Source: Owenia fusiformis (Eukaryota > Annelida > Polychaeta > Sabellida > Oweniidae). Taken from it: a DNA stretch of 64,000 nucleotides. Location of the stretch: the NCBI GenBank assembly GCA_903813345.2, contig CAIIXF020000007.1, positions 31,793,564 through 31,857,563 on the forward strand, read 5' to 3'. Of this stretch, positions 11,601-43,900 are shown piece after piece (position 1 is the stretch's first letter; every line of letters begins with the position of its first letter). Below the pieces are notes generated by a model that was not told where the DNA came from, ran no database searches, and was given only the letters and a program-made list of their open reading frames with translations. A program made the translations under genes and the position numbers.

Positions 11601-14177
11601 TAACAATCAGAGATGTGGGTAATTGGTGACAGATACAAAGGAGTGAGATGTTGGCAAATAGTGAGATCATACAAGAGAGGGAGATGTGATTAATTGGTGA
11701 TAGATATGAGGTAATAAAAGGGAGATAATAGCAATTGGTGAGATCATTCAAGAGAGGGAGACGTGGGTAACTGGTGAGACCATACAGGAGAGGGAGAAGT
11801 GGGTAATTGCCAATTGGTGATATATACAAGGAGAATGAGATGTGGGTAGTTGGTGAGACCATACAAGAGGGGGAGAAGTGGGTAATTGCCAATTGGGTGA
11901 TATATACAAGGAGAATGAGATGTGGGTAATTGGTGAGACCATACAAGAGAGGGAGAAGTGGGTAATTGCCAATTGGTGATATATACAAGGAGAATGAGAT
12001 GTGGGTAATTGGTGAGACCATACAAGAGGGGGAGAAGTGGGTAATTGCCAATTGGGTGATATATACAAGGAGAGTTAGATGAGGGTACTTGGTGAGACCA
12101 TACAAGAGAGGGAGAAGTGGGTAATTGCCAATTGGTGATATATACAAGGAGAGTTAGATGAAGGTAGTTGGTGAGACCATACAAGAGAGGGAGATGTGGG
12201 TAATTGGTGATAGATACAAGAAAGTAGATGTAGGTAATTTGTAATAGATTCAAAAAGGGGGATGCGGGCAAATGGTGAGACCATACATGAGAAGGAGAAG
12301 TGGGTAATTGCCAATTGGTGATATATACAAGAGAATGAGGTGTGGGTAATTGGTGAGACCATGCAAGAGAGGGAGATGTGGGTAATTGGCTAATTGCCAA
12401 TTGGTGATATATACAAGAGAATGAGGTGTGAGTAATTGGTGAGACCATGCAAGAGAGGGAGAAGTAGGTAATTGCCAATTGGTGATATATACAAGAGAAT
12501 GAGGTGTGGGTAATTGGTGAGACCATGCAAGAGAGGGAGATGTGGGTAATTGGTGATAGATACAAGAAGGGAGATGTAGGTAATTGGTCATAGATACAAG
12601 AAGGGAGGGCAATTGATTAGACCATAAAATAGAGGGAGTTGGCAAATGGTGAGACCATACACAAGAGAGGTAGATGTGGGCAAATGGTGAGATCATACAT
12701 GTACAGGGAGATGTGGGCAAAAAAATCTCTAAAGTGCACACTTTATTTCAGGAAAACAAAAGATTTTTACAATAATTTATTATTTTTTTCTATAACAATG
12801 GTTAACCATTCTTATTATTTGGGAGAATTTGAATTTTTCACCCGTTTTTGCACTTTGAATCCATAATAACTTCCCTAATTTATAACATATCATGACTATT
12901 TTGGGAATAAGAATAAATTGGTAAATTGTATATGTTGCTTGTAATTTTGTCACCCCTTATAAATTTGATTCTGCCTTTAAAGTTGACACTTACTATGAGT
13001 GAAGCAGGGTTGTGTCTTGGTGGCAGGGCGCAATAGTATCGCATGAAATACTGTCCACATAGATCTTGCAACTCATCCTACAAAGAAACAATAAATTTAG
13101 TTACAGTGCTCACCATAAATAAATAACACCTGAATTTGCTGAAGTGAGGATTCCCCATGTTAAAATTCAGAGAATTTTCAAGAGGTCATTCATCAGTTGA
13201 TGAAAGTATACAAAATCTAAAATATACAAAACTTACAGGATGTGTAGACATTATTGGAAATTATGAAGTGTCAAATCATAATGGTCTGGAAATGGTGATA
13301 GAAAAGTCAGGTGTCATTTATTTATGGTGAGCATAGTACAGGTGTATTTATGAACATCTACAAAAACTTCAAAGACTTTGTTATACTTACAAAGAAATGG
13401 ACAAATATGTCTGTAGAACTAGAAATAATCAGTTAACAGGTTTCCTATTACCATAAATGTGGGGTTGATTTGAAACTACTTGCGTGTTGACCAGGATTGT
13501 TGAAATCTTGGGGTTGAAAATTACTAAATGATTATTTAGATAAAATTCAGCTTTGTGTCAAGTACTGACAACATTTTAAAACCCCAAGATTCCAACATAC
13601 ATGTACATGTAGGCTACTAGAAGTTGTGAAAAATCAACCCCACATTTATGGCATTGGGGGTACAGGTTTCCATACCTTATAATCTTTGATAATGTCAGAT
13701 TTGGGCCTCTCAAGCCTGTCCAACCTCTTCTCAATTTTCTTTAGCATACTATAGACCTGCTGCATAGACTGCAAAATGAAATAAGAGTATTAGCTGGTTG
13801 GTTTTTGGGTTTATTGGAAGACATGACAACTTATCCCGTTCCCGGGAACGGGATAAATGACAACGGAACGGTGTTCATGTTGCGATTACTGTACTGTCTA
13901 TACTGGGCCTACATTTCTGATTGAAATGCATCAGGGAATCATCGGTAAAATCTATTTTCCGTATATTGTACAACTGACAATGAATGTACATGTTATATTC
14001 ACCTTAGGCTCCAGGCCTATATAGTCTATTATATTATTAACTTACAGGCTCGGCAGGCGCCGCTGTTGGCCTAGCATTATCTTGAACATGAACATGGTGA
14101 TGGTCTTGATCTGTACTGCCGGGTCTAGGGCTAACACCACTTCCAGCAATGAACATGTCTTCCTGGCTGTTTTCCAT
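5692..14177 (-). CDS. Accessory protein of the 25-kb transposon, unknown family (245 aa)
   Basis: Minus-strand exons 14046-14177, 13676-13768, 12994-13077, 11057-11176, 10546-10668, 6097-6200 and 5692-5773. Every junction is GT-AG and phases agree (0,0,0,0,0,2), giving 245 codons and a TAG stop. The start ATG at 14177 gives MENSQEDMFIAGSG, followed by a His-rich DQDHHHVHVQD stretch. Residues ~45-75 are a probable coiled coil (LKKIEKRLDRLERP). Next come DLCGQYFMRYYC, basic GEDRRRTSS, and a tail rich in charged residues (RWEDLKKIQTEAI). I recognise no domain. It is divergent from the transposase with 720 bp between starts. Being intact, spliced and inside the TIRs, it is probably an element-encoded helper, for instance a binder of the subterminal repeats. 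A captured host gene is the alternative. A candidate poly(A) signal (AATAAA on the minus strand) is at 5501-5506. Confidence 0.8.
7952..8062. repeat. Short hairpin within the nested element
   Basis: TTTTTGATACAGGGTATATC at ~7952 and its exact inverse near 8043-8062, about 70 bp apart. Possibly a tiny MITE. A separate near-perfect palindrome (GGTGATATATATATCATCC) lies near 8529. Confidence 0.7.
8720..8910. repeat. Dispersed repeat, copy 1
   Basis: Shares an ordered series of blocks with 26610-26765 in the same orientation: ACTGGACATTTGTATAACTATCA, CACATAAGGGTAATATGAAA, CCACCTAGTGGCGAAACTGG. Both copies lie inside the 25-kb element. Confidence 0.7.
10257..10469. mobile_element. MITE-like inverted repeat
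   Basis: Left arm CAATGGAACAACTATTCTTC through GGAGGCAATTTCCAAC pairs with right arm GTTGGAAATTGTCTCC through GGATGTTCCATTG. About 60-bp arms and no coding capacity. It lies in intron 5 of the accessory gene. Confidence 0.75.
11205..12725. repeat. Minisatellite with ~36-bp units
   Basis: Roughly 40 copies of a unit like GGTAATTGGTGAGACCATAC plus AAGAGAGGGAGAAGTG, with longer composite units carrying ATTGCCAATTGGTGATATAT. It fills the intron between accessory-gene exons 3 (12994-13077) and 4 (11057-11176). Several long open frames cross it only because the repeat lacks stops; they are not genes. Confidence 0.95.
13107..13333. mobile_element. MITE with ~27-bp TIRs
   Basis: Starts TGCTCACCATAAATAAAT and ends with its inverse ATTTATTTATGGTGAGCA, 227 bp in all, non-coding, in intron 2 of the accessory gene. 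Confidence 0.85.
13451..13651. mobile_element. MITE with ~21-bp TIRs
   Basis: CCATAAATGTGGGGTTGATT at the left is inverted at the right as AATCAACCCCACATTTATGG; 201 bp, non-coding, in intron 2 of the accessory gene. A second internal pair (CTTGGGGTT / AACCCCAAG) adds to the hairpin. Confidence 0.85.
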
Positions 14178-14897
14178 TTTCTTATCACATAAACTGGAAA
14201 TTTCAAATTTAAAATATGCACATAATGATAAAGCTCTCTTTTATCTATCAAGTTACGAATCTTGGCCACGGCTAGCCTAACTCACTCTCATTTTCGATTT
14301 TGTCCGAATTTCGTCTGGTCAATATCGCTACTCGGATTTGGAACCCAAAATAATTGTTTCTACGTATAAAAGTTGAACATAAATATTGCCCTTGTGAACT
14401 TATATATATCCACGTGCTATTGTTTACAAATATATAGGTAAGTGGGCGGGTACAAAGCATAAAAACAAAAGAAATATTTACCTTATATCAATATCACAAA
14501 GCAGCCAACCAATGGACGTCGCGTTCACAGACCAACCACTGCGATTACTACGCATTTAATAACATAATTCTATAACATCTATTAATGTCGGCCAATGGCA
14601 ATGTTGACAAATGTTTCATTTTTAATAACTGTATTAAGTTTTGACTTCTTTTCATGATTAACATTAGATTTGATGTTTAAAAGTAGATGGGGAATGCCAA
14701 ATTCTCGGGGATTATATCCTGCGTATATGAGTGTGACGTCATCAATGTTTAGTGCGCCATATTTGATTTCGATAAAATCAAGATGAACATTTGAAGATAT
14801 TCAAACTCCACATTTATTATTGAAGATGTCAACATGCCATTGAAAAGAATATTTTGATAGTGACTCTTTTGAACGCTTACAATACCACACTACTGGT
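14178..14897. promoter_or_regulatory. Shared promoter interval between the two transposon genes
   Basis: 720 bp between the divergent ATGs at 14177 (minus) and 14898 (plus). It must hold both 5' untranslated regions and the promoter(s), unless untranslated exons lie elsewhere. A full CRE palindrome TGACGTCA is at 14734-14741. No nested repeat interrupts this interval, unlike nearly every intron of the element. Promoter function is inferred from layout. Confidence 0.6.
14734..14741. promoter_or_regulatory. CRE-like palindrome TGACGTCA
   Basis: Exact 8-bp CREB/ATF consensus about 160 bp upstream of the transposase ATG, in the divergent promoter interval. Chance occurrence is possible. Confidence 0.4.
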
Positions 14898-17800
14898 ATG
14901 GAGACATTCAGATGCAGACCGTGTGAGGTATCATTTGACAGGAAGAAGAAACTTGAAGATCATTTGACAACATCGAAACACAAACGTTTAAAACTGATTT
15001 CTCAATTTCCCGAGGCCGAGCAAGAAACTGGTGGTAATGATGCTCGTGTTGACAACCCTGGCCCTGCCCACGGATGTATAAATGGAAGTAATGATGAAAG
15101 TGAAACTGACGCTGAGCTGTTCCAAGAAGTAGATCTAAGCCTAGATGATGATCATTCTAGGCCTTGGGCTATTGATGATGATATTGTGATGTCTGAGTCG
15201 GAGTCTGAGGATGATTATGCTTATGGGCCGTACAGTGATGATGAGAACATGTACAATAGTGATTTTGAAGAACTGGAAGGTAAATGAATTCAAATGAATA
15301 AGTGGGGTTTGTGTAAAAAACCGGGTAACCGGGTGACCGGGTACCTTACCTTCCTACCAGGGTTAGGAATTTGATTTTTTCATTTCATGCCTCAAAATGC
15401 CCAACTGACATCCCACTGAACGTACCAGTGACACAACCAATCAAGCAAACAACCAAACAAGCACCAAAATTTATCTACCAATAAATGTTAAAGGAAAACT
15501 ACGAAAAAAGCACTCATTTTCACGTTTGAATCGCCTATTATCACCCACATAGCAATTTTATATGCTGATACGCTCAAGAAATTTTCAAGATTGCTGTTTT
15601 TCAAGATGGCCACTAATTATGAAAACATGTTTCGTTTGGTGGGATTTGCTACTCCATGGAGTTGCTGTTTTTCTAGTTTGATACTGTATATCTCTAAAAA
15701 TTGATATTTTCAGAAAAGTTCATGTACATGTCATGAATGCCAACATTCTACGTTTACTGCTAATATGATGTATAATTCATGTAATTGCACTGAATAGAAT
15801 TATATCAATTTCATTTCAGATAGAGAATACTACCCCTTTCCAACAAAGGCTTTTTATTTGTTGTATGTTATGAGAACATCTAGGACACATCATATGGTAA
15901 GTGTACAATATAAACAGACAGATTGGGGGAAAAATAAACAAAAAGGTTACTACTTGTATTTATATTTATCTTCAAGGCCTCTGTAAAGTTTTGACCACTT
16001 TGGCTAATATATAATAAATAATGTAATGTAATAAAGATGCGGTAATGTGAAACTTATTTGTCAAATTAAAGCACTTGAAAATTGAAGCACTTTTCCAAAA
16101 ATTGTCAGCTAATTGAGCCTATCAAGCCTTTACACTGCAAGGATGCAAAACAAAGAATTACTTCCTTTGGCCTTATGTGCTTAGTCAATAAATACTGTCT
16201 GTTTTGGATATCATTAATTGACTATGAATACTACAATTGTTTGTTATAAATCAAAGTGTTCAAACTACACTTTTATTATATCACCACCAAAAGTGTTATG
16301 GTCTCAGTTTTTTGTGACGGCGGTTGGTGGTTGGCTTCCGGCAGTTGGCGTCCGGCGGTTGGCGTCTGTAAAAATTTCTTACAACTTTCAATAACTTAAC
16401 AAATACTGTTTAGACTGACTTCATTTTTTCCTGAATCATCTACAAGTTCACAGAAGTTCAAATCTGACTTTCTGACATCTGACCTTCAATGACCTTCTCA
16501 AGGTCAAAAAGGTCTTTTTTCATTTTGCTTCAACTTCAAATTGAACAATCTTTTTTTTTTAAATCATCTACAAAGTCTCAGAAGTTCATATCTGACTTTA
16601 GATTTGAGATTTGACCTTCAATGACCTTCTCTAGGTCAAAAAAGGTCAGAAAGGTCTTTTTTCAACTTGCTTCAAAAGGACTTAAAAGAATTTCAAAATC
16701 ATCTTCAAGATCCCAGAAGCTCAAATCTGATTAAGATTTCAGTATCTGACTTTCATTGACATTCTCAAGGTCAAAAAGGTCTTTCCAACTTGTTTTAATT
16801 TTTTTTAAGTGGTGTTTTGTCATGTTAATGCCTTGTTTTTTCATTTCTTTTAGTCTGATCCTATGATGAACATGGTTATTCATGCCATGAGGGAGTTGAG
16901 TGTAGAAGGTGTTCCTTCGTTGCGACAGTTGAAGGCCTTTGAAATCCCCAATCTAGAGAGCTCATCAATGATAAAAAAGGCATGCAGGCATACATTTTTT
17001 TAACATTGGAATATAGTTTGATCATAGATTTACAAGGTGTTTGATGAAGTTTTCATTGTTAATTACTCTCAATGCAAATAGGCAAATTAAAACATAACTG
17101 AGTGGTAATCCCGAACTTATCCCAGAAATCGGATTGCACAACCAGGCAGACACAGAAATGAAAAAGAGGGAAATAATTTTTGCAGCTATTCAATGCTTTG
17201 GTCATATTGTATAGTTTATTAAATGAACGATTTATTTACAGCAAATTCTATGTCTGCAAGATACCCTTCATGCTATTTGTGCTCCTACATGTTATCTGTG
17301 CTCCTCTTATTTAAACATTGTTTAATTTACAGTTCCAACATAATGAAGCTCCAGTTTATATGGTTTCCCCTGGCAAAATAGCACAGATGATTGTATCCAA
17401 TCCCAGGATGAAGCTAAACACTAGCCAGCAGGTTGAAGAAGAAGAAGTGCAATCCAATGTGCCCAAAACACAAAGCAATGCCAGACGATGGCATAGACTG
17501 AACTTTGAAGGTAAATGAATTTTAGATGTGTAGGTTCATGATGGTGGCAATTGTGATACATCTACATTCTCCATAGTATGCCCTTTTCTCGGAAACATTC
17601 ATGAATGATTTAGTGGTATTTTATGAATACATAGCATTTTGACAGTCTAAATCTTTTTCTAAATGTCCAGAGTGTAGTAAATTGATTACATTTTCAGAGG
17701 GAAATATCAACATCCCATTTAACATATTTGCGGATAGTTTTGGCACAGCCACAAGTAAAAGATGGGCTCCAGCAGTAGGTGTACAGATGCAGCCTTCAGG

Positions 17801-20800
17801 TATTTTCATTAGAGTTATAGAGAATTATGTGTGAATAACACCCACAGGCCTCTAGGAAAGTGAAACAATGAGAACTCTTTGATATGTGGGAATAGAAGGC
17901 AGTTTTGTGATTTAAAGTTGGAATGTCATTCTTTTATGCACCATTTATATATGACAAGGAATGGAATGAATCAAAGAATTCTAAAATTGAATTTTGCAAA
18001 GGTGGGCTGTATCGAAACATTGTTATGAAGTATAGTGTAGCTATATGTGCATGTTTGTGAACTTCTACTGTTTAGGTTTCTCCACAGATTACAAGAGCAA
18101 ATATACGTTTCCTCTTGGCATCTCAACAGATGTCTCAGAAGCAGTTTTGGTTGGGGATGTATGCATGGAATTGCAAGATATTAAAGGGTATTTATTTACT
18201 ATTTTTTTATTTAATACCCGAAACAATATTGATTTAGTTTTTTCAAAGTTATGACAAATGCTATAGATTGGTCCATTTGTTGAACACCCTGTACAAAGTT
18301 TAATCTTATATCTGTATATACATAGTGGGGAATCAAAATGAGGGCACAGCCGCTGACTGCGACTTGGGTAACTGTTCAACGTAGTCCAGCGCCAAAATTG
18401 AGGGACAGTGCCTTCCACATCAATGGACAAAACTGAGGAATCAAGGTATTTTGCTACTGTTTCAGCTTAATCTGGAAAACCGATTATCTTCTAATGATCA
18501 ACAACAATGGATACAGAGTAATATCTAAGTCACCGAATAGACACTAAAATAAAATTCAAAATACCTTGATTCTTCAGTTTTGTGCTTAGATGTGGAAGGC
18601 ACTGCCGGATGTTTCCCCATTTTTGCTCTGGGGTGAGTTGTAAAATTATGCGAGTCGCAGTCCGTGGCTGTGCCCTCATTTTGATTTTCCACCGTGATAT
18701 ATGATAAACTTTATTGATGAAGACATAATCAAGAAATAATGTTCATTTACAGAACAAAAATAGAAACATATGATGCAAAGAAAAATGTTGTTGCACACAT
18801 TACCTGTCATGTTGGGTGCTTTGTCACAGATTTGATGGCCTCTTCAGACCTGTGTAGCCACCTTGGTAGTAGTGCTAGGATGTACTGTCCAAAATGCAAA
18901 GTAAGTTGCATTTAGAATTATCATAAATATATTTGTCAGTAGTACTCTCTGTGATCCTAAGAATCAATTAATTTATTGCATTATCAGTTATTTATCTGTA
19001 AGTCTGCAAATTCAGTAGGCTATCTGATTTGATTACTAATAACTATTTTATGATACTGTAACATTTACATTATCATTTTACACCAAAGGTAACTAAGGGT
19101 GACTATAGCCTGTGCCAGTCTAGAACAACAACAGACACAAAGAAAGACTTGGCTAAGTAAGTATTTTATGCTGTCAAAATAAGACATTATTGTGCAAAGT
19201 GTTGAAATCAATAGTTCTTCAATGTATCTAATGTTCTTTTATCACAAGTTACACTAAATTTGGTTGGATGAAGTAAAGTTATCTGTTCATATTCCTTATT
19301 ATGATCAATAGCAGCTTTTGAGATTTATCAATCTCATTTGGTTAAATGTATCTCAACACTTTTACCAGGCCACCGTGTCTCTGTAGCAGATTTTGACAAG
19401 TCTAGCTTGTATATTTTTGTTTTGACTTTCAGTTTAAATAGAATGGTCAGTATGCAAGAAAGGCGTAATTACCAAAGAGGAACAGGAACAAAAGCTGGAG
19501 ATAATCCTCTGTTTGAAGATAACTTGGAAGACATCAATCCACACAGGTAAGATATACGAGATGAAGACTGTACCAAATATATAAAAGCAAACCCATACCC
19601 TGACTTTTCTGTATGGAAAATCATGTTTTAAGCTCTTTCTCACTGGTAAGAATCAAATCGACAGACAAACAATGTCTCTGATTGGTCAAATCGACAGACA
19701 AACAATGGCGATTTCAAAATTTTCTAAACAAGCTTCGAATACTTCGAATAATTAAATGTTGATCTCTGGCGTTTTAACCAATATCATAGCTTGTTATGAC
19801 GTAATATGTGTGTCATCGCTAAAACTCTGGGGTTTTCCCTCCTCTTATTATACAGGGTGGGCCAAATAAAACCAATACCCAACTTCAAATCAGGATAAAA
19901 ATAGCTACATTCAATATGGTACATTGACTCACATATCATTTTAAAGGTTATATATTTTCAAACAATTTGGTATATAACACTTTGTCATGAAATCAATAGT
20001 AATGTTTTATTATACTTATTTGGGAGGCCGGGTTGCTATTTACGGTCTCCAGATTTTAGGGGGAAAATAGTAAATCTGCGGAATTATGTTAATTTTTTAT
20101 TTATAGAATATCATTTTTTGTTAGGTGAATACATGCTTGGATATTGATATTTGCATCATTGTGTGACTTTAATTATTGTTTATGAATATCAGTGCTGTTT
20201 AATATCATTTTATTTATTTATTATTTAACCAATTTTAACAATTGCTCAATTTACCCCCTCCCCCTTTCCCCCTCTGCGTCAACAATAAGCTCCAAGTGGC
20301 AATCTATCGATAGCCTTATTGAGAGATGTCTGTTGAAATTCATTCAACATTAGGATTCTGTTTCAGCTCATCAATGCTGTTTATTGGATGCTTGTGATTG
20401 TACCATTTCCTTGAGATTTAGTCTAATTGCTCAATGTATGGCAATCAACCACATTAGCATCGGGGCTGTTGGCAGGCCAAGCATCGAGATCAATCAAATT
20501 GACACCTTATTCGCTAAGGAATGCCAATGTCTCCTTTGATCTATGGTACGAGGCATATCTTGTTGGAAAATAAAATCCTCGTCACATATATGTTTAATGT
20601 CTTTTAATAGAACCCTTTTGAGTACTTATTGATGGTAAACAAAACTGAAATTCATAAAAAATATGTTTAGTCACACAACTATGCACATATAGAACCATGT
20701 ATTCACCTAACAAAATGATATTCTATAAATAAAAAATTAACATAATTCCGCAGATTTACTATTTTCTCCCTAAAATCTGGAGACCTTAAAAAGCAACCCG

Positions 20801-23800
20801 ACCTCCCAAATATGTATAGTAAAACTTTAATATTGATTTCATGACATAGTGTTATATATCAAAATGTCCGAAAATGGATAACCTTTAAAATGATATATAA
20901 ATCAATGTATCATATTGAACCTAGCTATTTTTATCCTGATTCAAAGTTGGGTATTGGTTTTTTTTGGCCCACCCTGTATATAAGGCTTATCAAGTTCAAA
21001 TATAAAAGCACTACGTCAATTATAAAGTAGTTTAATTCGTTGAAAAAAAATTCAAAATCGACATTTACTGTCCGCCATCTTAGATGAGAAGGTAACTGCC
21101 GTTACCGCATCTTGATTCTGACCAGTGTTTCTACTCACAACTCCAAAAGCATTCAATGTTATACGTGTACATTAGTTAACAATAAAGTGTACAAGTTTTG
21201 GAAAGATAGGTTGCAGTAATTCAATATGGCTGAGACTTTAATTTTCAAAATAACACTTGTTATAAATAAATGATAATATTTATTTATGTAAATAAATAAA
21301 CCAAAACTATAAAGTGAAAAGTATTGTTTAATTTTCCTTAACCCTTTAACGGTTAGCTATAGAGAATTACATCAACTGTTAGAGGGGGCAGATCTGCTAC
21401 TGTATGATCTCCATAAGGAACAATCATACGAGGCCTTATTGTGTATCATTGAAAACGAAAAGCTTATTCAATTTTTTCCTTACTTTTAACTATATTGAGC
21501 CATTATTAATGAGATACTAGTATTCATATTGTAAGAACATAGAGGTTCATCGATTCAAGTCAAAACTACTGAAAAATAGGACATATCAGTAAGTTTAACC
21601 AGCTATAACTTTCATCCTAGAGGTGTTAGAGTCACAATGGTTTCACTAAAAGATGCCTTATTCAATTTTAAGAAAAGCCAGAAAATGTCAAGTCACGAGA
21701 TCGATCAACCACAGATCTGCCCCCCTAAATTACCATTTAAGGATTAAATTGTACATGTAGATAGCTTAATTTAATTTAATTTGTCATGAAACTACTGTAT
21801 TTTTAAATTTTAGTTTGGTACCTTATGGGACACTTCATATGCTGTCTTTAGGCCTCATAAAGCAGCTGGCCAAGGCCATTACCAAAAGGGTCAATAACAC
21901 AGAACTGATGGAAGCAGTCACCACAACCTTCAACAGTTCCCTCAAAACAGTGAGCAAATTAGAACTATTCAAATTCTGCAGTTATTAATCTCTTGCAAAA
22001 AGTGTGAAATATGGTAGGCTAGCTGGCAGAATTACTGAGAATACAGTATTTCCTTAGAAATTGTAATGAAATGGTGACTTTTCTTAACAAGTTACAGATC
22101 AAATCACTGATCATAGTTCCTGACATGATAAAAATCTTTAAATAAAATTATAATAATGAGTCACTAGACTACATATAAAATAGAAAGAATGTATATATGA
22201 TGTTGACTGTTTTCCTTTATTTCCTTTACAGTTTACCAAGTACATATCAAGCAGACAAGGAAAAGATTTTAAAGCATGGGTAAGTGTTGCTGTACTAATA
22301 GGGCTGTCACATGCACAGGGGTTTTCTTAATGACACCCAGTGACTTCATAGTCAAGAAAAAATTAATGATTTTAACAGATACCAACTCTCTCATAAGTCA
22401 ATGCCTCACGTGTACTTTAGGACGATTGTATGATAACAAAGTTGGTTTATTATTCGCTCACAATGGATATATTTTATTTTCAGATTCAGATTGCACCTTT
22501 CATTTGTGATGTCTGTAAACCTGGTGACAACCTAGCAGCTGCTGCTATTAAATTGGCAAAGGTATGACTTCTTTCTGGTTTTAAAGCACCATTTGGTCAT
22601 TCAAATAGATGTTGTCTACAGGTTTCCATCCAAACTGTTTCATGGATTCATATGAAATTTTCAAGGATGTTTCACAATGTGAAAGTTTGAAAGTGATCAC
22701 CTAATCATTGGTTGCCAAGGGTCACAGCAGCCACAATGGCATGAAATCACCAAACACCTAGATATTGATGATTTTGCCTAGGAATGACCTTTACCTCAGA
22801 TCATCTAATCATGGGTTGCCTACGAAGGAGATGTCCTTTTAGTAGACGGAATGACAGATAGATGATGGACAGACCACCTTGCTTTATATTTGTATCTCTT
22901 TCACTGTTACTTAGTATTTCTTTGTTTATAGCTTTGTAAAGCAGCATTCAGAAATGGCAACAACATTGCAGATTTGGCTGAAGATTACCATCACCATCTA
23001 AAAACATCCATTCCTGATCTTATGTCAAATAAGGTTCATACATTGCTACATGTGGTGAGTTTCAATCCTACCTAAAAGTATGCTTAGTTATTGTCATCAA
23101 TTTAATGAGTGAGGGATGTGGTGTCAGTTTACTTGTATGCACACTTCAAGATTAGGTAACAGCAGCACATAGTAAAACTAAAACCTGTCATTGAATTAGC
23201 AAAGAATGTTTTTGCTATAATTCACAACTATAACTGATAATTTGTATTTTACTAGGTTTATTCAAATTCACTCCCATACTTTGGGATTTAATATACAGAA
23301 GGCTCATCGGATTTAATTATATTTGACCTTCAGTAATTTTTTCACTAATTCTATAACCTATTTAATTACAGATTCATTTTTTGACAGATTTAACTTGTAA
23401 TTTATAGCAAAAATTATCCTTTTTAATTCAATAAGATATTCTTTAGCTGCTCTCCATACCAATTTAAGGAAGAATTAAAGAATAAGTACTAACTACCTGG
23501 TATATCCATAAACTATATACTATATTATATATGTGTATTGTGTATGCATGATCAGTTTATACTCATTTTTAGAGGGAAGATATACAGGAACACGGTCCAT
23601 TAATGGAGTTCTCTGAAGATATATTTGAGAAGAGCCACAAGAATTTTAGGTGAAAATAATTTTCAAATATTAAAGGCACAGTCTTACACTATGCTCAAGC
23701 TAGTAATTACAGGCTGTCACTTGGTTGGTTTGTGTTTTGCTGTCATATTGAAAATGAAAAACATTAATAGGCAAGATAACCCATTTCATCGTTTTCCCCT

Positions 23801-26800
23801 TTTATAAGAGTAGACTGTGTATTTTTAAAAGGTCTTTCAAAAAACATGTTGTATCTATTTATTTAAAACAGCAGAAATTCAACCACATGGTCCACCTTTC
23901 AATGAGGACATAAACTTATTTTGGTTTATTCATGTTTTAAATTATATTTGATGCAAAGAGTGAAAACTTAAATTCTAGTCAATCTCAGAGTCTATGATGC
24001 ATATAATGTTTGTTTATTTCAGACAACATATCCATCAGAGACAAAATAAACATAACCTTAGCAGAGATACAGCCCTGCAACAGGCAAGGGAGATGGCCCT
24101 GGAGCATATTGTCACAGGGGGCTATATCAAGGACGCAGTATGGTAAAAGAATTTAATTTGAAAATGCAAAACCTTTTTTGAAAAAACTTCTGATTCAAAA
24201 CTTTTACTAATTTCAAACATTTTTACTACATTTTTGGCTCACACAGTGAGCCTATGGAATTGACCAGGCGTCTGTCCGACCATCCGTTGGGCCAATGGTC
24301 CGTCCGTCAACATTGGCCGCACAAATTAAATTGCTGTTCAGATTGAGTCATATCCACATTCATTTTATGCATATCCATAATGCCAATAAGTTGACTGATT
24401 CGGGTCAATTAACATGGCAGGTATACGAGGGGGGATTCATAAGTAGTGGGACAAATGCTGTAACTTACTCATATCAAACAGATTTTATTAAAATTTGGGT
24501 TGACATGGTAATCATAGACTTCAAGCAAATCTCTGCAGGTCTCTAATACTGAACACTTCTTCAAGGCATTAAATTTGATCACAGTGCAAATGTTTATATG
24601 TGATCCTCGCTTCTAGTAGCTCAATTTCCATATAACCCTCATGTGTCTGATACTTATACTTATGAAAATATGTTCAGTAAAGCAAAATATTATCTGTTCA
24701 CTAAAATGTCTATGCGGTCTATGGGGAATCTCCCGAAGCTAGAAGTCACATTTTTAAAGAAAATTAATTTTTCAGTGGATAAACACAAGGAGCACACGCG
24801 TCTCGAACTCGCAACCTCGTGGTTACGGCACCCAATCGCCTAGCTTGAAACCACATTTCTAGTTGTAATTTTATATGTAGATTTCAAATATGGTATTAAT
24901 TTGACTGAATTTTGAATTTTTAATGATGTAAATCAAGATTATTTCTACTCGCATCTAGGTTATTTTCACCTATCATCGCCAAGTTTGCCCAGTTTCGGAG
25001 AAATTGCCGATTTTGACGTCAAAAAATCAAATTTTCTGTAAATATCAGACACTTTGTTGAAGTAGAACTTTCAAATAATTGGTAGTAGTTTATACTGTAT
25101 GTGCAACATATGTCCTCTGAAGATTTCAAAGCTCTGAGAATTAGAGTTTTTGGTGTTTACTCTATAAAATTTGACAAAAAGCAGGACAGTCATTTTCAGG
25201 GAACATTCTCATGTTTAAAGTCAATGGCAGGTTTTGTGATTGACAAGTTTTTCAAAGTTTTTCACTATACTTGATCATTTCCTGCAATCTACAAGTTGCC
25301 AGGAGCTCAAATCTGACCTTAGTTTTGAGAATGACCTTCAGTGACCTTCGAAAGGTCAAAAAGTTGATTTTTCAAATTGAGTTTTTGGATGTCAATTTTG
25401 GTCACTTTAATCACAAAAGACCTACTGAGCTCTGAATAAGTAAAATGTTCAAGGTCAAAGGCCATCAAACTAGGTCACAAACTGTGCTATCTAAGTTTCT
25501 CAAAGTTCGAGACTTCAAATCGAAATCAATAATTGAGCCAGGCCACAGGAAAAGGGGTCTTATCACAGAATTTTTCATTATTTTGATTTTTTGTTTATCT
25601 TAAAAAGCACAAAGAGATATTTCAAATGAGCCATGGATTATGTCTTAACAATTTTCCTTGCAGATATAGATCAAAAAGAGGGATTTGAATTTAGTACATT
25701 TTCCTCTTAATCTTGGGCACATTTTTGGCTCTGTAGCACAATTTTAATTATTGTGATAAGACCGGTTTTCTTATGGCGAGGCTCAATTTTGTTTGAAAGT
25801 CAGGATATACATTCCTCTGAAGGTTCTACACTGTGTGAGCACAGGACCGTGGATCCTTTGTCTTCTAAAATTCATTTTTGGTCCATTTAGTAGCTTTATA
25901 GATAATTTCATATGTCCTCCATCATGTCCATTGTAATAACCAATGTCACTGTAAACGGTTCTTTTATGAAATGATTTTGTAATAAAAATCAATCAAGTTC
26001 CTCAAATTGAAAATGGCCATCATTTTTATCACAAAAAGCTTGCCTTAAAGGCTTTCTTACAATTATTTTAAGGAGACAGGCTGGATCCAGTGTACTAAAA
26101 GAGGACACCATAATATCAAAGTACTTAGGTATTCCACAAGGTACAGGAACATCCACCCAACAACTCACTAAACTCAACAGGGATGAAAACAATAGAGTAC
26201 TTTCTACTGTAAGTATTTCAGCTATAAATGAAATAATAATGGTAATGAAAATATATTTGGGGGTTGAAAGATTGACGGACGTGTTGTCACATCCATCACA
26301 TCCCCATCTGACAGCCATGGAATAAGATGATCTGGGACAGTGCAATTATTAACATAAATTTGACAAATTTTGAAGCTTCTCTTTGTGCCTTTAAATGTAA
26401 GTGATAGTCGTTTAGACTAGAAGTAATCTTCATTTTGATCATTAAACATGAAATAAAATTTGTATTAGGCTAAATTAAATATTGTATCTGAATGCAAGTA
26501 AAATTACATCTAGAAATGTGGTTTCAAAAATTGTTAATCAACTTTAAAAACTTAATTTTTCTTTGAGAATGTGACTTCTAGTCAGGGCGATTTCTTTTAG
26601 TGGATAGATACATTTTTTTCCTGGACATATTTTCATTTGTATAACCATCAGATACATAGGCGTAATATGAAAATTGATCCACTATATGATCCAATGCCAT
26701 GCTATCAGATCCGAATTAGCCACCAGGCTGAGAAACTGGTAACATCCTCCTGGCATCTGGGTTATTGACAACTCTTGGTGTGTTTTTATAGGTGAAAAAT

Positions 26801-27445
26801 GGCATGGAAGTAATAACAGCCCAATGCATCCATTTAGCCAGTGGTGCTACTGTCAAGAATGGGGATATCATTGAACTCAATGATACATACTATGTAAGTT
26901 CAAACTACTAGGATACAGCAATATTGATTAACTCAGAATAATTATACAGTATAATCTGTTGGAGGTGACACATTGTTTTGTCTTTTTGTGTTCAGTATCC
27001 ATGTGCAGTAAATCATTGGGTGATATTTTCATTCAGTTCTGTTACCATGGCAATAAGAATCATTAACAGTTTATTCAAAATTATTATTATTGGTTATGAA
27101 AACAAATAAAATTGTGCCTGAGAATCATTTCTACAATAAAAAGTAAATCCACTCATTTCATTTCAGATGTTCAAGGAAGGGTACAGAGAGAAAGTGAATG
27201 GGGAAGAATTTATACTAGTTGACAAAACATCTCATAAAGAAACACTACTTTTGCAGGAAAAAATGACCCTTTTAAAAGTAGTTCAAGCCCCATCTATGAC
27301 AATACCCTTAATGCAGCATCAAGTGAGCAAAGTATCTGTTGTTCATTCCTGTTCAACAGAGAGGTGCTACTTTAACCCAGTTTCAAAATCATTTAAACAT
27401 CAGGGAGGAAAAAAATATATATTAAACACTTTCGCCCTGTATTAG
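14898..27445 (+). CDS. Plavaka/CMC-type DDE transposase, 18 exons, 801 aa
   Basis: Exons 14898-15279, 15820-15896, 16854-16979, 17333-17510, 17698-17799, 18076-18187, 18753-18900, 19089-19156, 19433-19546, 21814-21949, 22232-22279, 22484-22561, 22932-23054, 23573-23649, 24023-24142, 26073-26208, 26792-26893, 27167-27445. Phases agree throughout with no stop; intron 3 uses a GC donor. Order: N-terminal C2H2/U1-type finger (CRPCEVSF...HLTTSKH), acidic linker, FPTKAFYLLYVM, first candidate catalytic Asp at D267 (FADSFGT), second at D352 (FVTDLMASSDLCSHLG) beside a CPKCK knuckle, INPHRSLVPYGTLHMLSLG, then candidate catalytic Glu at E579 (FSEDIFEKSHKNFR) and EHIVTGGY. The tail VVHSC...YILNTFAL matches the Plavaka C-terminus. 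Block order and spacing follow fungal Plavaka transposases as I remember them; the DDE assignment is by alignment to those. Expected to cut the element ends in the nucleus. Confidence 0.92.
16310..16800. repeat. GGTCA-rich dispersed repeat in transposase intron 2
   Basis: Iterated TGACCTTCAATGACCTTCTC and AAGGTCAAAAAGGTC blocks after a GGCGGTTGGCGTCCGGCGGTTGGCG segment. An inverted relative lies at 3440-3720 (GAAGGTCAAAATC, ACGCCGAACGCCGAATACC); others are near 25300-25500 and 36200-36800. Non-coding. Confidence 0.7.
18325..18692. mobile_element. MITE with long inverted arms
   Basis: GTGGGGAATCAAAATGAGGG at the left is mirrored by CCCTCATTTTGATTTTCCAC at the right (25 of 27 bp). Inner arms also pair (GGCACTG / CAGTGCC and ATCAAGGTATTTTG). 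368 bp, in intron 6 of the transposase gene. Confidence 0.85.
19853..20976 (-). mobile_element. Decayed Tc1/mariner-type element
   Basis: TIRs CAGGGTGGGCCAAATAAAAC and its inverse end at 20976, with TA flanks at 19851-19852 and 20977-20978. The inverted similarity extends over 100 bp. On the minus strand about 20300-20590 reads FIFQQDMPRT and, in another frame, DLDAWPANSPDANVVD, matching the FQQDxAxxH and WPxxSPDxNP blocks of mariner transposases, with stops and frameshifts. Lies in transposase intron 9. Not active. Confidence 0.85.
24440..26650. repeat. Inverted-repeat segment around transposase exon 16
   Basis: Blocks at 24700-24880 (AGAAGTCACATTTTTAAAG, CAGTGGATA, AACCACATTTCTAG) recur inverted or rearranged at 26490-26620 (CTAGAAATGTGGTTTC, GAATGTGACTTCTAG, AGTGGATAGATA). 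Probably two insertions of one family on either side of exon 16. The rest, including 25270-25760, is GGTCA-rich repeat with no gene. Confidence 0.55.
24782..24848 (-). repeat. tRNA-derived (SINE-like) fragment
   Basis: On the minus strand it reads AGGCGATTGGGTGCCGTAAC, then GAGGTTGCGAGTTCGAGACG, resembling a tRNA from D-arm to a B-box (GTTCGAGAC). No full cloverleaf or acceptor stem is evident, so it is a SINE remnant rather than a working tRNA. Confidence 0.5.
26610..26765. repeat. Dispersed repeat, copy 2
   Basis: Diverged direct copy of 8720-8910 (for example CATTTGTATAACCATCAGA, GTAATATGAAAATTGATCC, GAGAAACTGGTAAC), in intron 16 of the transposase gene. Confidence 0.7.
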
Positions 27446-29500
27446 ATACTCTATGTTCTAGCAACTGTCGCCATGTTCATTTCCATGAACATTTCCTGCC
27501 AACAAAAAACCTTCAGTGGTTGTAGGTGTTCACTTCAAAGAGTGGGATTTATTCAGAAGTGAGTAGAGTTTGTGTGGAGGAAGGGTGTCCACTAGAGATA
27601 GGTGTTCACTAATAAAGGTTTTACTGTTGTAAATCAGTCTGATTCATAAGATAACATGACATAATAGAAGTCTTGTATAAAGTCAAACTAGGTCACAAAC
27701 TATGTTATCTCAGTTTATCAAACATTCGTGGCGAGGTACGAATCAATTTGAGTTATAGTATCAAAATTTCAGAAAAAACGGTTTTGGTTGGGCCAGACTG
27801 CCATGGACTTACATGTTAGAAACTTGCAATATTCACTTATTTTGTGGTTTATAAAAAAGCGTAGAAGTGTACAGTTGGTTGAATCTGTCTGAAACCCGAA
27901 TTGCATGGGATGACTCTGTCAATGTACATGAAAATGTTGATTGTCTAATGAATAATTCAGTGTTTTAAAGAATTTTAGCATGGCATCAGTGGAGATTTAA
28001 TCTAAAAAAGTTGTAAAGTCATAACAATTATTTAAGTGACATGCGTGAGACTTCAGAGCTGTAAAGAAACTCCACTATTGTCAAAATTTGAACAAACTGG
28101 AGATTTTGATTTTGATCTCTTGAAAGCCTATGATGGTACTTAAGAATTGAAACTTCGTGACTTCTGTGTAGGTTGAGGTTTGCAGTTTACAAGGTGTGAT
28201 CTTGAAAAAAACATAATATGTGCTCTGTACTGTTAGAGTTAATGAATAAAGAATCTGATGCAATAAGAAGGAAGACCCAAGAGAATAAAATCTATCATCT
28301 TCATAAAATAAGGCAGCTTATTCTATAATATTGTATTCGTAACTACTTTCTTATCAGGCCCTACCCAGGTGGGATCGAACTGCTCCTCCAAACAAAATTT
28401 TTAAAAGCATGCAGTTTTTCAATATTCTGAGCACTTTTCAAGTAATTTTGGGTCCCTTGAATTTTTGGAAAGTGAAACCCCACCCTTGGCAAAAGCTGGC
28501 TACGGGCTTGACTTAATTATCAATCTGGAGATTCAATTATTCAGGCTACCCAAAGCAGATAATAAGTATATAAATAATAAATATCAAGACATTGTACATT
28601 GGTTTTTTAATGGACTTCTTCATGGGTATATAATATGTATTTGCAACAACAATGAACTTCCAGCAATGTATTGCTAGACCAGATTTTCTTTAACAATTGC
28701 AATGGCGTCTAAATGAAGTCTAAAAAACGACCATAGACATTTCTGAAGAAGATCCGATAAAGACTTACTATGGTCTCCTCTTTACGCTTAAGATATATGA
28801 AAAGTAATGAGATATACATGTTAGTACTAAAATGTATTACATTTGTGATTATTTTATTTGTTCATCGGAAAATTACATATTAATCAAATATAAATAAAAC
28901 AGAACGCTAATGATTTAAACATATGACACACAACGTCTTTTGTTTGTTTTTCATTTTATCAACAAGTACACCTAAAGCCAGAGTAAATGAGGACGATGAG
29001 GACAGAGGCGTACGTATTTCTTATTGTGTGTAGGCAATTTCGAAAAAAAATTGTAAAAACAGGCATTCATTATTGTAAAAAGGGATAATATGGCTCAACT
29101 TAAATTAATGTTTAATAAAGATTAAATCAACATTGTTATCCTCGTACTCCGTGGCAGTGTAGTCTTCAACATATCACTGCAGCGGGCAGATCGTTTACTG
29201 TAAGCGTAGCATGGCAACTTCGAATAAACCATTGATGTGATTGGTTCTTGTCCCATGTTCATGTCACGTGATTGTGTGAAATCACCAAATTTTGGAGATT
29301 TCTTCATCTGCCCGCCGCAATGTCTATTCCGAGACACTGCATGGGAGTTTGTGTTATCCTATGCCAAGTAGTTTTAAAGAGCTAGAGATAAGTTGGTTAG
29401 ATATATCCCGTAATCCTGATTTTGAGGTTTCCATATCCAGAACCTCCATATCTCCCGCCATATTCCCCGGCTTCCGAGCATATCTTCCCGCTTCAGGTAA
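27446..29500. other. Right flank of the transposon, no gene seen
   Basis: About 2 kb between the transposase stop and the A-rich tract. A candidate poly(A) signal AATAAA is at 27611-27616. A diverged GGTCA-type repeat lies near 27670-27800. Around 29170-29320 are an inverted pair GCGGGCAGAT / ATCTGCCCGC and a CACGTG E-box. I see no supported coding region. Confidence 0.6.
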
Positions 29501-29504
29501 TTGA

Positions 29505-29750
29505 AAAAAAATGTTAAATATTTTTTTAATTTGAAAAACAAATTGAAAAAAATTTTGAAAAAAAAATTTTGGAAAAAAAAGCTGAAAAAAGATTTTGAAA
29601 AAAGTGCAAAAATTCGAAAAAAAATTTGGAAAAAAATGGAAAAAAGATTTTGAAAAAAATTGCAAAAATTCGAAAAAAAATTTGAAAAAAAAGTTAGAAA
29701 AAAAATTTGAAAAAAAAATTTGAAAATAAAGTTGAAAAAATCTGAAATAT
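29505..29750 (+). repeat. Strand-asymmetric A-rich tract
   Basis: Irregular repeats of TTTGAAAAAAAATTTGAAA type, about 245 bp with long A runs and hardly any C on the plus strand. It lies just inside the right subterminal repeats. A Phe/Lys-type open frame on the minus strand is an artefact of composition. Confidence 0.9.
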
Positions 29751-29754
29751 GTCC

Positions 29755-30010
29755 TCAAGCTTGAATCAAGCCTGAAAAAATCAAGCTTGAGAAAATCAAC
29801 ATTGATTCATGCTTGATTCAATGTAGATTTTGGCTTGAAAATCTCAAGCTTGATTCAGTGTTGATTTTTCAGGCTTGATTCAAGCTTGAGAATATCAATG
29901 TTGAATCAAGCTTGATTTTAAGGTTGAATCAGCATTGAGGTTTTTCAATGTTGAATCAAGCTTGATATCAAGCTTGAATCAACCCTAATTTGCCATCAAC
30001 ATTGATTCAA
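29755..30010. repeat. Right subterminal repeat cluster
   Basis: About 255 bp made almost wholly of TTGAATCAAGC, AATCAAGCTTGA, GCTTGATTCA and CAACATTGATT in both orientations, mirroring the left end. It is denser and less diverged than the left cluster. Confidence 0.92.
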
Positions 30011-30031
30011 CCTTGGGAAATATTTGCTGTG
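30007..30031 (-). repeat. Right terminal inverted repeat
   Basis: On the minus strand it reads CACAGCAAATATTTCCCAA then GGTTGA. Followed by the duplicated TA at 30032-30033 and then reductase exon sequence. Confidence 0.95.
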
Positions 30032-30060
30032 TAGGCCTCTCTTGGAATGTTCTTCAAGCC
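30032..30060 (-). CDS. Aldo/keto reductase exon 3, upstream piece
   Basis: A 29-nt exon start after the acceptor TTATGGTTACAG, encoding GLKNIPREA plus the first two bases (TA) of a tyrosine codon. It then runs straight into transposon sequence with no splice donor at the boundary. Relatives read IPREAYYLATKVGRY at this place from memory, so the two pieces are one exon. Confidence 0.9.
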
Positions 30061-32664
30061 CTGTAACCATAAAATACAAGGCTCTCTTGGCTCTTGAGTA
30101 AGTAAATGTATCTAATGTAAATAATGTATCATTTGTTCGAAAAATGTTTTACCCTGGACATATGATCTAAACATATTGTCTTTCCATGATAATTAATTGT
30201 AAATCATGAATCCATTCACATCCACATCTATGAATAAGGGTATATATTATAATATTGCGGCTCCAGAGCCAACAACTCCTTTTATATAACGACACACATT
30301 CTAGCAAGAGAGCATATATTACAATCCATAACTCCAATGACAAAATAGTACTTGCTCGCCTTGCTTACCTTTCCCAATACAGTTTCAGCTTTACCATGAC
30401 CGTACCAAGGAGCAACGTCAATTAGATTGATGCCACTTTTCACAACCTTTTCTACCACCTTTATACACTCTTCCTCATCTGTCTCGTGGAAGACGCTGCC
30501 AAGAGAAGACGCCCCTAAAATCATGTCATACATGAGTATTCTAGCTAGAAGTCCTTGTGACATAGGTTGTGAGAGTATATAGTGCAGGGTATTATATCAA
30601 GACTATACCTCAGTATTACAGTTGCGTACATAATTTAAATGACGTGAAAGGACAGAGACAGATTGGAAAATAATGATAAAAGTATTTTGCTCTTATCATT
30701 CCAGGGTATCCTTATTCTTAAAACATCCATCAGTTCGAACTTTTGGATAATAATATTCGATGTTAAGCATATCAGGCAAAAAACACGGGTGTTAAAACAC
30801 GAATATACCATGAGCACATGCTTTGAGGATCCGCGTTGTTTGAACCTACCGCCGAGCACACTCATACATTAAGACCCGTTACACAGTCATGATACCGCCG
30901 AGCAAGCTCATTGCATCATCGGGTCTGCTTTACCCCCATGAAAAAAAGAAAACGTGTTTGGGGACGTCAACTTCTTTATCTATTTTGATATCTCAAAAAA
31001 TGAAACATGTCAAAACTTCTACTCAAGGTACACATGACAAACCAAGATACAGCCATCTTTACCCCATGCCGGGACCCCATGCAAGATATAGAGGTTCTTG
31101 TCTGAATACCTGTGCAAGATGTGAACAAATCTGTGCGCATATTTTACCTAGTCCAATTATCGTTAAATTTTGACAGTTTTTAATGTTTATAAATTGAAGT
31201 ATTATTAACACATTGTGCAGCCAATCCATATCCAATAGCCTACAAAGAGAATTTCAACACATGTTAAGCATATATCGATTGCAAACCTACATGACACATA
31301 GGCCTACATTCATCGTTTTGATAACCTATTTAAAAATGCGATCATACCAAAGCTTAGGAGAGAGACATCCATCCCTGTTGCGCCCAGTGCATTGTATTTC
31401 ATCTTCATTACATCGTCGGCATTGTGCCACCCTTTAACAAATGTCCCAGGAAGATTCATGATATTGACAGTGTTGTCAGAGAACACAATATAGAGATTGC
31501 GAATAAATTCTCCTTGTTGCTTGCTAAGTATGACTTATTTTCCTAGAGTATTTCCCTACGTTCAACTCTGTCTCTGTTATGAACAGAACAGCTCTATCAA
31601 TAATACTCTCCAAGTGATATGTTCTGGTCTGTTAATCTCTTTCAAACGCTATATTTGTTTCCTTCCTGTAATACAGTAATGTCATATGACATGTAGGTTT
31701 ATCAATACATTGATTCAAGATATATATAGAACTTCATAATCACAGCATTGCATTTGTTAAAATAATACAATGAGTGCACTTGTTTATCTACTATAGTACT
31801 CTGGGTGGTATGAACATATCAGTTTATACTTGCTGTGTACACACTGGCATGTATAGTACTACGGCCAAGGACATTTGTGTCCGAAACACCTAGATTCAAT
31901 TTGACTTTAGATTTCTTGTAGGGGACCCCAAGGCATGTAAAAAAAGTTTGTGAACCCTTGCAAAGCAGGCTCAAAAGTGCTGAGTCAGCAAATTTTATCA
32001 TTTCAAGTCGGAGTTTGACCATATCAGTTTGAAACTATTTAATATCTCATTTGAAGATGTTGCAATTATATTGAAACATCATAAATATATCAATAAGGCA
32101 TGTATAAAGAATTCCTGAAAGTTTGGGTCTTATCCAACAAAGTTTGCTAGAGATATGGGATAATTTGTCCCTAAAGGTTCATAATTTCTCTTCAAAATTT
32201 CTTAATCAGTCGATAGTTAATCAGTCATTTAAAAAAATAGTAAGGACCTATGGTGTATAAAACCTGATTAAAAACTTCACTGATGATGTTAGCAAATATG
32301 CATAAGTTTCACCAAAAAGTACATATATCTATTTTTCTGATTTTTCTCTTTACCTTCCCCTAAAAATTCAAGAAAGGGGGCTTGGCACCTTACACGTCAG
32401 TTGTTGCTAGGGTCAAATAAAAATGTGTATCATTATAGCAAAATGTCTTATTCTAAATAAATATTAACACTATATGTGACATCATAATATGCAAAACATA
32501 TTCATTATCTACCGTTTTGTACTTTTTACAGCTTATCATTGCCATACCCTATAACACCATATGCATATTTCGCCTTGAAATTTTAGAATTACTTAGTTCA
32601 ATCAATGAAAGTTTGATGATAATCAGTTTATTGTGTCAAAAACTACAGTACTTTACAAAACATG

Positions 32665-40987: not shown

Positions 40988-43900
40988 ATGCATTTAATTT
41001 GCACTTCTATCGTTTTCCTGATTTTGATCATTGCGATATCCACAGAAGACCAATGTTGTGAAAAGCAATACAAAAAACTGAATAGAGAGCTGAGAAAACT
41101 CAGACGTAACACGAGTGATGAGATTTCCAGTTTAAGAACAAAAGTAACAGAGCTGGAGAAAATAGTTTTAAAACCAGGTAAGTTCATACAAAAATCATAA
41201 CTTCATCTGAATTTTCTAAAATGCAAAATCATTGCATCAAATATTTCATATATTTACGATCGTACTATTAATACATATTCATGAAGTTAGTACAGAATCT
41301 AACATGTCAAAATGATTTTGGGAAATTTTCAAAAACAAACATAGTGTCTATTAGATTTATTTTCTCGCGAACGTCAGTAGGTCGTAATACAGGGTGTACC
41401 CAAAATGTTTCCCCACCCCGTACACTAAAGTTTGAATATTTGATTTAGGAGGTATTTGCAATCCAACTCTGATGATACAGGACTAGTCAGCCAAGACTAA
41501 ATTATGAACTATTTATCATTTAGACTAATGAGTTCATGAAATTGTAATTCCATCATGTTACATTTAATCCTCTCAACACAGTCATGGTATTAACTGGCAT
41601 GATATGTAAACAGAGAGACGGTTTAAAAAGTCGTTTAGATTAATGATAAAGTATTTGGGAAATCCTAATTAAAAGTTTTTGTTCTCTCCATATAGCAATC
41701 CAGAGCAAACCACTCGCCGGACAAGCATTCTTTAAAAACGTGAAGTTTTCACCATGTTGAGCAGTTTTCAAAATTGTCCAATTTGAACCATCGGATTATA
41801 TTTTTTATAACTGCCCACCCCCTTGACCCTCGAGTGTAAGAATCATTTCCACACTGTCAATGGTTTTACAAAATAGTTCACGTCAGCGCATTTGTATGAT
41901 TGAACATTATACACTTATCATAAATTCGTAAAGTATAGTTTTAAAATAAACATGAGCTTGTGATGCCTATCAGACTCTATCAGACAATATTATATATGCG
42001 AAGAATTATTAAATGCTTCCTGAATGCAAACATACAACACTTTAATTGAAATACTTAGTTAATTAACACACAGTAGTAATAAGACACACGGATAATAAGT
42101 AACTGGGCTGAGGATAAGCAATATCTATCTCTCAATAGGTATGATTAGTATGAACTTTTGATTCCTGAGAATTAGTAGGTAGTAGTGCTTATTTTTTATG
42201 TATAACACATAAAGTATCCTTTCGTAGTAGTGTTTATAAAATAGTGTTTCCCGTTGTGAAAGATAATGAAGATTGACTCGAATCAAGAGAACGTTTAAAG
42301 GAATCAACATAATCAAGTTCCGAAAAGACAATTTAAAGACGAACAGTTTGATATAATACAAGCCATATGTTATATTTTTAGAGTGAATAGTACAAGGGAA
42401 TATCAAAGGGTGAGGAACGTGGAAATCCCGGGATTATCACGTAACTGAATATGGTTCAAAACTAACAAAATGACCAAGATTCTGATCTTGGCTTTTTAAC
42501 TTAAATTTTACTTTAAAAGGCCATAGACGGTCAAGAAAATTTCCCATTATTTTGACACCTTTGACGTTAAATTTGGAGAACTTTATTTTTGGCCTTCTTT
42601 CCGGACGCCATATCTCAGAATCGGGAAGAGAAATCAAAACATTTTCTAATGCATTTCAAAGGAATACAATGGAACATAAATCGAGATTAAAAAAATACGA
42701 TTTGACCCAGTTCTTGTCCTACATAGAAATTTGATCTAATTTCCAATCATCCTTGACTCAATCCTAAAATAACTATGTAAGGGGGTTTAAGTTAGCTCCC
42801 TTAATTGGCGAGAAAAGGAGTGGTATCGATATGGAGAACTTTTTGAACACACGTTTCTCTTAAACCAGTCATGAAAAAAATCTAAAAATTTAAAACATCG
42901 TCAATTTAATGGTCATCTTTTGAATGGTAACAATATAATTTGAAAAATATATATATACTTTCATCTATATTGTCTTAGAAAACATATCAAATACTTGTTT
43001 TGTTCTTGGTATCATGTTTCCAGAGTGAATCGAAATGAAACATCTTGATTTTTATCTATTTTTTGGGAATTTTGTGTTAATTTTTTGAATACTTTTTTAA
43101 AATCAACCAAAAATTCCTTTGTATAACTATAATATTGAGAGGTCTAAAAACATGCTGTATATGCTATTTTGTTCCAACAAGGTTCGGAAAGACATTTTAT
43201 TTCATTCTCAAGAATTGGTAGAAAGGAGCAAAAACAATTGCACTAAAAAACAAAAAAATGTTAACAAAAACAGTTATATAAAATATTTCTAAATAATTTT
43301 TGCATTAAATTGTTGTCAATCAGTCAACATTACATAAAATACCGTGTTTTTTACAGAATGTTTTCAATGATTGGTTTAAGAGAAAAACATTGTTGAATTC
43401 AGTTCTCCATATCGATACCAATCCTTTGGAAGAGGGGATAATTTTTGAAAAATAGCAAAAGCAAAAGCAATTAAGGCTCTAGAGGATCTAGAGTCTTGAT
43501 AATTTACCCAGTGTGGTCTCTCCTGTATAAATAAGAGATTCAAAAATGTATCAACAGACGTGAGATATAAACAGATCTACGTCTTCACTCATTTTGAACA
43601 ATCTGGCCATTTCATTTTCCAGGTACTGGCCCGGACGTTGGTGGTATGACTACGGCACCAACCACAAAACCAAACATTGATGTGCGATTGCCTACTAACT
43701 TACACCCTCACCATTACAAGGTAGAACTCTACCCCGATATGTACAAGCAAAACCCTGAAGATTTTAAGTTCACCGGGAGTGTTGAAATACTGTTAGAATG
43801 CAAGGAGCCTACCGATGAAGTTATTTTCCATGTGAATGCACTAACAATCGATGATGCGTCCATTGAATTTAGTGAAGCCAGTGGCGCGGCTGATGCACCC

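Follow-up and report, generated by a model that had tools for sequence, protein, structure and literature searches.

Two points about described systems frame the present work: the PHD finger of RAG2 steers or gates RAG1, and CACTA elements with many introns are known in plants. According to PMC12730594, C(2)C and H(3-4)H motifs are among the features that define the CMC/CMCT transposases, and the fungal Plavaka elements (profile PF18759) combine these motifs with a DDE triad. The open-licence papers listed for Plavaka, in their titles and abstract openings, place it in fungi, in a protist related to animals and in a green alga, and mention no animal lineage; nothing was found there that links Plavaka with bivalves, and what is listed on CACTA/EnSpm transposases in molluscs concerns Tc1/mariner. 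Here we present a gene on contig CAIIXF020000007.1 (C7) of the 498-Mb genome of the annelid Owenia fusiformis, analyzed within a stretch of 64,000 nucleotides, hereafter the window. In our view the locus likely encodes a CMC-type DDE transposase, in a gene that is intact and rich in introns, with a RAG1/Transib-like core, a BAH-like tail and cut-and-paste chemistry, probably immobile at this site. Its family is old, low-copy in Owenia, present also in bivalves and a nemertean, and little described.

Gene structure, catalytic core and family placement

The gene model, rebuilt from splice signals, joins 18 exons in phase (14898-27445, plus strand) into 801 codons and a stop codon, where 16 of 17 introns are bounded by GT-AG and intron 3 by GC-AG. 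The spliced product is identical, letter for letter, to the deposited Owenia fusiformis protein P0001, and the 801-codon frame with consistent phases put forward in an earlier sequence-only reading of this DNA holds as proposed. PMC9977687 states that the Owenia annotation dropped models overlapping repeats or resembling known transposable elements, and that RNA-seq backs 31,678 of the 31,903 transcripts left after filtering, a figure for that set as a whole and not for P0001 itself.

Conservation was counted in a 27-row family alignment, which takes in every one of the 28 proteins except P0024 (an isoform of P0011); for each position the rows that carry a letter were used. Inspection of this alignment places the catalytic triad at D267 (23/23), D352 (26/26) and E583 (24/24). 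Both aspartates had been named in the sequence-only reading, while its glutamate, E579, is kept in 22/24 rows and was dropped for the better-conserved E583. Between the second aspartate and the last glutamate lie a C(2)C motif, C371-x2-C374, and an H(3-4)H motif, H559-x3-H563, whose zinc ligands are kept in 26/26, 25/26, 23/23 and 23/23 rows, respectively. The block given earlier as PHRxLxxGTLHMLSLG actually reads PHSLVPYGTLHMLSLG in the spliced translation. The predicted core fold is RAG1-like over 444 residues at ~11% identity. Three marks of CMC/CMCT transposases are present, namely the three catalytic acids, the C(2)C and H(3-4)H motifs and a predicted RAG1/Transib-like core fold, and homologues, motifs and predicted fold support the proposed complete, 18-exon Plavaka/EnSpm-related transposase in an animal. 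PDB sequence searches returned no match at E <= 1 for the Owenia protein alone, and zinc-finger proteins only, with no RAG1 or BAH match, for the full family profile.

Where the family motif is DDTSxNxSKRW, the Owenia gene reads DSFGTATSKRW: D267 stays, D268 (found in 21/23 rows) is replaced by serine, and the TSxN part is gone. Judged from sequence, this departure may indicate weakened catalysis or may be a mark of exaptation. At the N-terminus, the C2H2-type ligands C6, C9, H22 and H28 are visible as had been claimed, but the corresponding zf-C2H2_jaz match, the sole profile match of the Owenia protein alone, is below cut-off (E 0.054). Residues 37-127 of the predicted model have a predicted local distance difference test score (pLDDT) <50. 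In the mechanism we propose, the N-terminal finger and the core would bind the DNA ends, D267, D352 and E583 would coordinate a pair of metal ions for DNA cleavage and joining by cut-and-paste chemistry as in RAG1/Transib, and the C2C/H3H zinc site would hold the catalytic fold together.

Sequence profiles are weak for the Owenia protein alone, and its identity is drawn from relatives. A direct protein search, which shows only sequences sharing exact words, turned up a second Owenia protein, a paralogue at 34% identity, together with a protein from Mytilus at 31% and one from a chytrid at 25% (E 4.4e-7). Searching from the Mytilus protein led to 26 proteins, comprising 21 from bivalves, one from a nemertean, three without taxon and the Owenia protein itself; a profile search from a four-protein alignment returned the query alone. 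In the databases these relatives go under the labels uncharacterized or unnamed protein, and four bear a PF18759 tag; this tempers the earlier suggestion of an undescribed lineage, although the Plavaka titles and abstract openings described above are consistent with it. In a tree of 21 proteins rooted on the single chytrid protein, which sits on the longest branch, the two Owenia proteins pair (Shimodaira-Hasegawa-like approximate likelihood ratio test 85.1, bootstrap 86) on long branches.

PF18759 does not match the Owenia protein up to E 10. At E <= 0.1 it matches 9/27 family members, one of them above cut-off (P0007, 27.1 vs 26.3 bits), and PF02992 (Transposase_21) matches 11/27 and DUF4218 (PF13960) 3/27, these EnSpm/CACTA matches being partial and below cut-off. 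A search of the whole genome with PF18759 gave no match and is uninformative because 14 controls were equally silent. Because the matches among the 27 proteins spread in this way over PF02992, PF18759 and DUF4218, profile space puts this CMC-type transposase between Plavaka and EnSpm, and it is not filed as Plavaka. Strict Plavaka membership, one way to take the Plavaka/CMC-type label of the sequence-only reading, is not supported, given the missing match of the protein itself, this split and the failure to find Plavaka-type ends around the gene. A strict Plavaka element as in fungi, recently transferred, would account for the PF18759 matches and for P0007 in particular, yet PF02992 finds equal or more members, the one fungal relative to surface is the distant chytrid protein, and the old introns common to the Owenia paralogues (see below) argue against a recent arrival. 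We consider such a transfer highly improbable.

The C-terminal tail

The unexpected part of the gene is its tail. Comparison of predicted structures reveals that the tail, from residue 656 onward, resembles and has the features sought for a BAH fold, with modest Z; in both models the structural matches listed for it are all BAH-containing proteins, from several families. The YILN block singled out earlier at the C-terminus is re-read as the last piece of this BAH-like domain. No BAH profile occurs among the matches of the 27 family proteins (E <= 0.1), nor does one turn up when 13 C-terminal pieces are searched at E <= 1, and a PDB sequence search with the tail returned one ribosomal protein (E 0.45) and no BAH match. 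The modest Z and the absent sequence support would suit an SH3-like barrel of another kind, for which the BAH match is merely a common arrangement, but with every listed match in both models BAH-containing and several families represented, we think this unlikely.

The tail closes with the signature HxC-x4-C...H...N (residues 769-796 of P0001), in which C, C, H and N are invariant in 13/13 pieces and which may represent an extra zinc site on the BAH-like fold. By analogy with the RAG2 PHD finger, the BAH-like tail may engage histone tails or nucleosomes and so steer or gate the enzyme. Nothing was found in open-licence literature that joins a BAH domain to a CACTA transposase, or that describes a BAH/PHD/chromodomain combination; on domesticated transposases with a BAH domain, what is listed comes down to a plant review.

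Copies, flanks and selection

Two scans of the flanks (12750-14897 vs 27446-31000), an exact-seed scan with a check for target-site duplications (TSDs) and an ungapped inverted-pair scan, found no inverted repeat above chance. The best scores were 13 and 13; in the ungapped scan the best pair was reached by 26/40 shuffles for the close flanks and 28/40 for the wide flanks. Very short ends, such as the CA..TG ends with 2-5 bp target duplications that mark CMC/CMCT elements, are indistinguishable from chance in such scans. The intact terminal inverted repeats (TIRs) of the sequence-only reading are not supported. Plavaka-type end motifs of five letters occur on both sides of the gene without extended pairing, and a 37-nt, 70% pair (14064-14100/27468-27504) is unremarkable among the 212 pairs to which it belongs. 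A genome search with 14180-14960 matches itself alone. The dispersed repeat at 27486-27627 was rejected as the right end of an element because it has no left partner, no second copy in the window, and a 5′ flank opposite it that matches only itself. This repeat ends GGTTTTACTGT, which we take to be reminiscent of pogo-type ends. A second dispersed repeat with many genome copies lies at 27782-28042, likewise with no partner on the left side.

Whole-genome protein searches, whose copy counts are lower bounds, show the C7 gene as the sole full-length copy and at least 8 other loci with diverged or partial relatives. Exon 10 relics stand at two places on contig C3 (exon 11 at one), with further pieces on C117, C4 and C3, and the nearest relic is ~9% diverged in exon DNA. 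The C3 relics L022 and L025 are 94.4% identical over 2520 bases, so one of them was itself duplicated. Apparent exons of another repeat gene (KRAKIAR..YAENG, by eye) lie beside a C3 relic. The paralogue on C329 (L027 and L028) was rejected as a second intact copy because its matches end at local 10409 of 15481 bases and are followed by a 947-aa reverse-transcriptase-like open frame (local 10480-13320, by eye). The paralogue on C215 (P0002) is 5′-truncated: tblastn with P0001 (E 0.01) over the 11.5 kb that precede it finds none of exons 1-5.

Nine of ten C215 junctions tested match C7 introns 6-9 and 11-15 in position and phase at 34% protein identity, which argues that these introns are old. 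The tenth differs, and C7 intron 10 is private, absent from both C215 and C329; introns 16 and 17, among the 13 junctions of C215, look common by eye and were left uncounted. In C329, eight introns (2, 3, 5, 6, 7, 9, 11 and 12) coincide by eye with those of C7. Comparison of exons 10-11 with the C3 relic gives 10 synonymous and 3 nonsynonymous changes over 61 codons (dS 0.296, dN 0.021, dN/dS ~0.07; Fisher P 2e-5), against 77% identity in the intron DNA close by. In simulations of neutral drift at 0.10-0.15 per site, the mean number of stops was 9.8-14.3, and 0/300 frames stayed open at each setting. The few nonsynonymous changes and the lack of open frames under drift indicate that the transposase lineage has been under selection, a result that dates the lineage, not the C7 insertion, and that fits a mobile lineage or a host gene alike.

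An autonomous or recently mobile transposon with overlooked short or degenerate ends would explain the open full-length frame, the intact triad and the other genome loci; transposase selection in mobile lineages likewise lowers dN/dS, and plant CACTA elements offer precedent for many introns. A mobile family, however, would usually be accompanied by further copies, or by short derivatives with the same ends, whereas here the 5′ flank is matched only by itself, no inverted repeat exceeds shuffles, and the nearest relic is well diverged with no other full-length copy among these lower-bound counts. We find this explanation doubtful. Somewhat better placed, though still short of an even chance, is domestication, in which selection would have maintained a host gene that serves a conserved role in the cell since the transposon lost its ends. 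The single intact copy without TIRs above chance, the unique 5′ flank, the low dN/dS, the stop-free frame and the loss of D268 and the TSxN block beside a kept triad all fit, but the next protein from another species, found by exact-word search, is ~31% identical, unlike an old conserved host gene, and the drift test leaves the C7 insertion undated. Within our preferred reading of an intact CMC-type transposase gene, the C7 copy probably no longer moves itself; it may have been exapted as a host gene or may be the family's last intact relic, two readings that the data fit alike.

Features of the transposase gene and its flanks (window coordinates)
Feature	Coordinates	Strand	Remarks
Exon 1	14898..15279	+	Start codon; C2H2-type zinc finger 14907-14984; acidic low-confidence linker; splice model
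Exon 2	15820..15896	+	Intron 2 position and phase matched in paralogue C329 (by eye)
Exon 3	16854..16979	+	GC donor after exon; splice model
Exon 4	17333..17510	+	Splice model
Exon 5	17698..17799	+	First catalytic aspartate D267 at 17733-17735
Exon 6	18076..18187	+	Splice model
Exon 7	18753..18900	+	D352 at 18829-18831; C(2)C motif C371/C374
Exon 8	19089..19156	+	Splice model
Exon 9	19433..19546	+	Splice model
Exon 10	21814..21949	+	LVPYGTLHMLSLG block; relics 88% and 86% identical at two places on contig C3
Exon 11	22232..22279	+	Relic at a single place on C3
Exon 12	22484..22561	+	Splice model
Exon 13	22932..23054	+	H(3)H motif H559/H563
Exon 14	23573..23649	+	Catalytic glutamate E583 at 23627-23629
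Exon 15	24023..24142	+	Splice model
Exon 16	26073..26208	+	Core ends; BAH-like domain starts near 26149 (residue 656)
Exon 17	26792..26893	+	BAH-like domain
Exon 18	27167..27445	+	BAH-like domain end; H769-x-C771-x4-C776...H787 motif; stop codon
Predicted RAG1-like transposase core	15822..26112, introns included	+	Residues 129-643
5′ flank	14180..14897		No partner inverted repeat; unique in genome search
Dispersed repeat	27486..27627		41 bases past stop codon; many genome copies; no second copy in window

Two fold-back elements lie inside the gene. Intron 9 holds one at 19849-20980 (arms 269 nt, 91% complementary, spacing 594 nt) that looks like a miniature inverted-repeat transposable element, and intron 6 holds another at 18325-18692 (arms 83 nt, 76%, and 48 nt, 92%). 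Upstream, what may be the opening coding exon of a divergent gene (14047-14175, minus strand, by eye) lies ~720 bases from the transposase start, and a promoter common to the two would fit exaptation. Host exons nearby encode an aldo/keto reductase (30360-30524, minus strand, E 7.5e-10) and a peptidase M1 N-terminal domain (43598-44077, plus strand, E 9.6e-17). Tandem arrays occupy 1-2868 (71-bp satellite, 39 copies) and 11231-12721 (36/79-bp).

Meaning and comparison with known systems

Taken as a whole, the sequence-only reading had the anatomy largely right, erred on the TIRs and E579, and gave the relatives incompletely. We offer tentatively, as a rather unlikely extension built on predicted models, a lophotrochozoan CMC branch that would carry a BAH-like histone reader and a RAG1-like core in one chain, as compared with RAG1 and the RAG2 PHD finger, and whose Owenia copy would be exapted, immobile and selected across its 18 exons. 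Should the tail function as a BAH module, CMC transposases would have chromatin sensing of their own, which would bear on how RAG-type recombinases became guided by histone marks through the RAG2 PHD finger and on the choice or avoidance of target sites by cut-and-paste elements. Because it is intact and constrained and lacks recognizable ends, the copy is also a testable candidate for one more case in which a RAG1-like transposase was exapted outside vertebrates. The gene also corrects the idea of an almost exclusively fungal family, as intron-rich or uncharacterized relatives stand unannotated in lophotrochozoan genomes.

Compared with fungal Plavaka, the Owenia gene has an animal host and many introns, no TGT..ACA or CATCA..TGATG ends with a 2-3 bp TSD were recognized, and PF18759 matches are partial and confined to other family members. 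Compared with EnSpm/CACTA, no CAC..GTG ends were found around it. The uncharacterized bivalve and nemertean proteins (Mytilus, Saccostrea, Crassostrea, Pecten, Lineus and others) share its family, architecture and catalytic motifs at ~25-30% identity, but mostly keep DDTSxN where the Owenia gene has DSFGTAT. Unlike the BAH domains of BAHCC1, TNRC18, DNMT1, ORC1 and ZMET2, which lack the extra HxC-x4-C...H motif conserved in this transposase family, the Owenia tail is fused to a transposase and has no BAH sequence-profile match. With RAG1, BbRAGL (ProtoRAG) and Transib the gene shares the predicted core fold, and its spacings of 19 residues (D352-C371) and 20 residues (H563-E583) equal those of RAG1, where we take the equivalents to be D708-C727 and H942-E962 (E962 also appears in PDB titles). 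Despite this shared core, identity to these proteins is low, and the Owenia protein ends in a BAH-like domain in place of the ends of RAG1.
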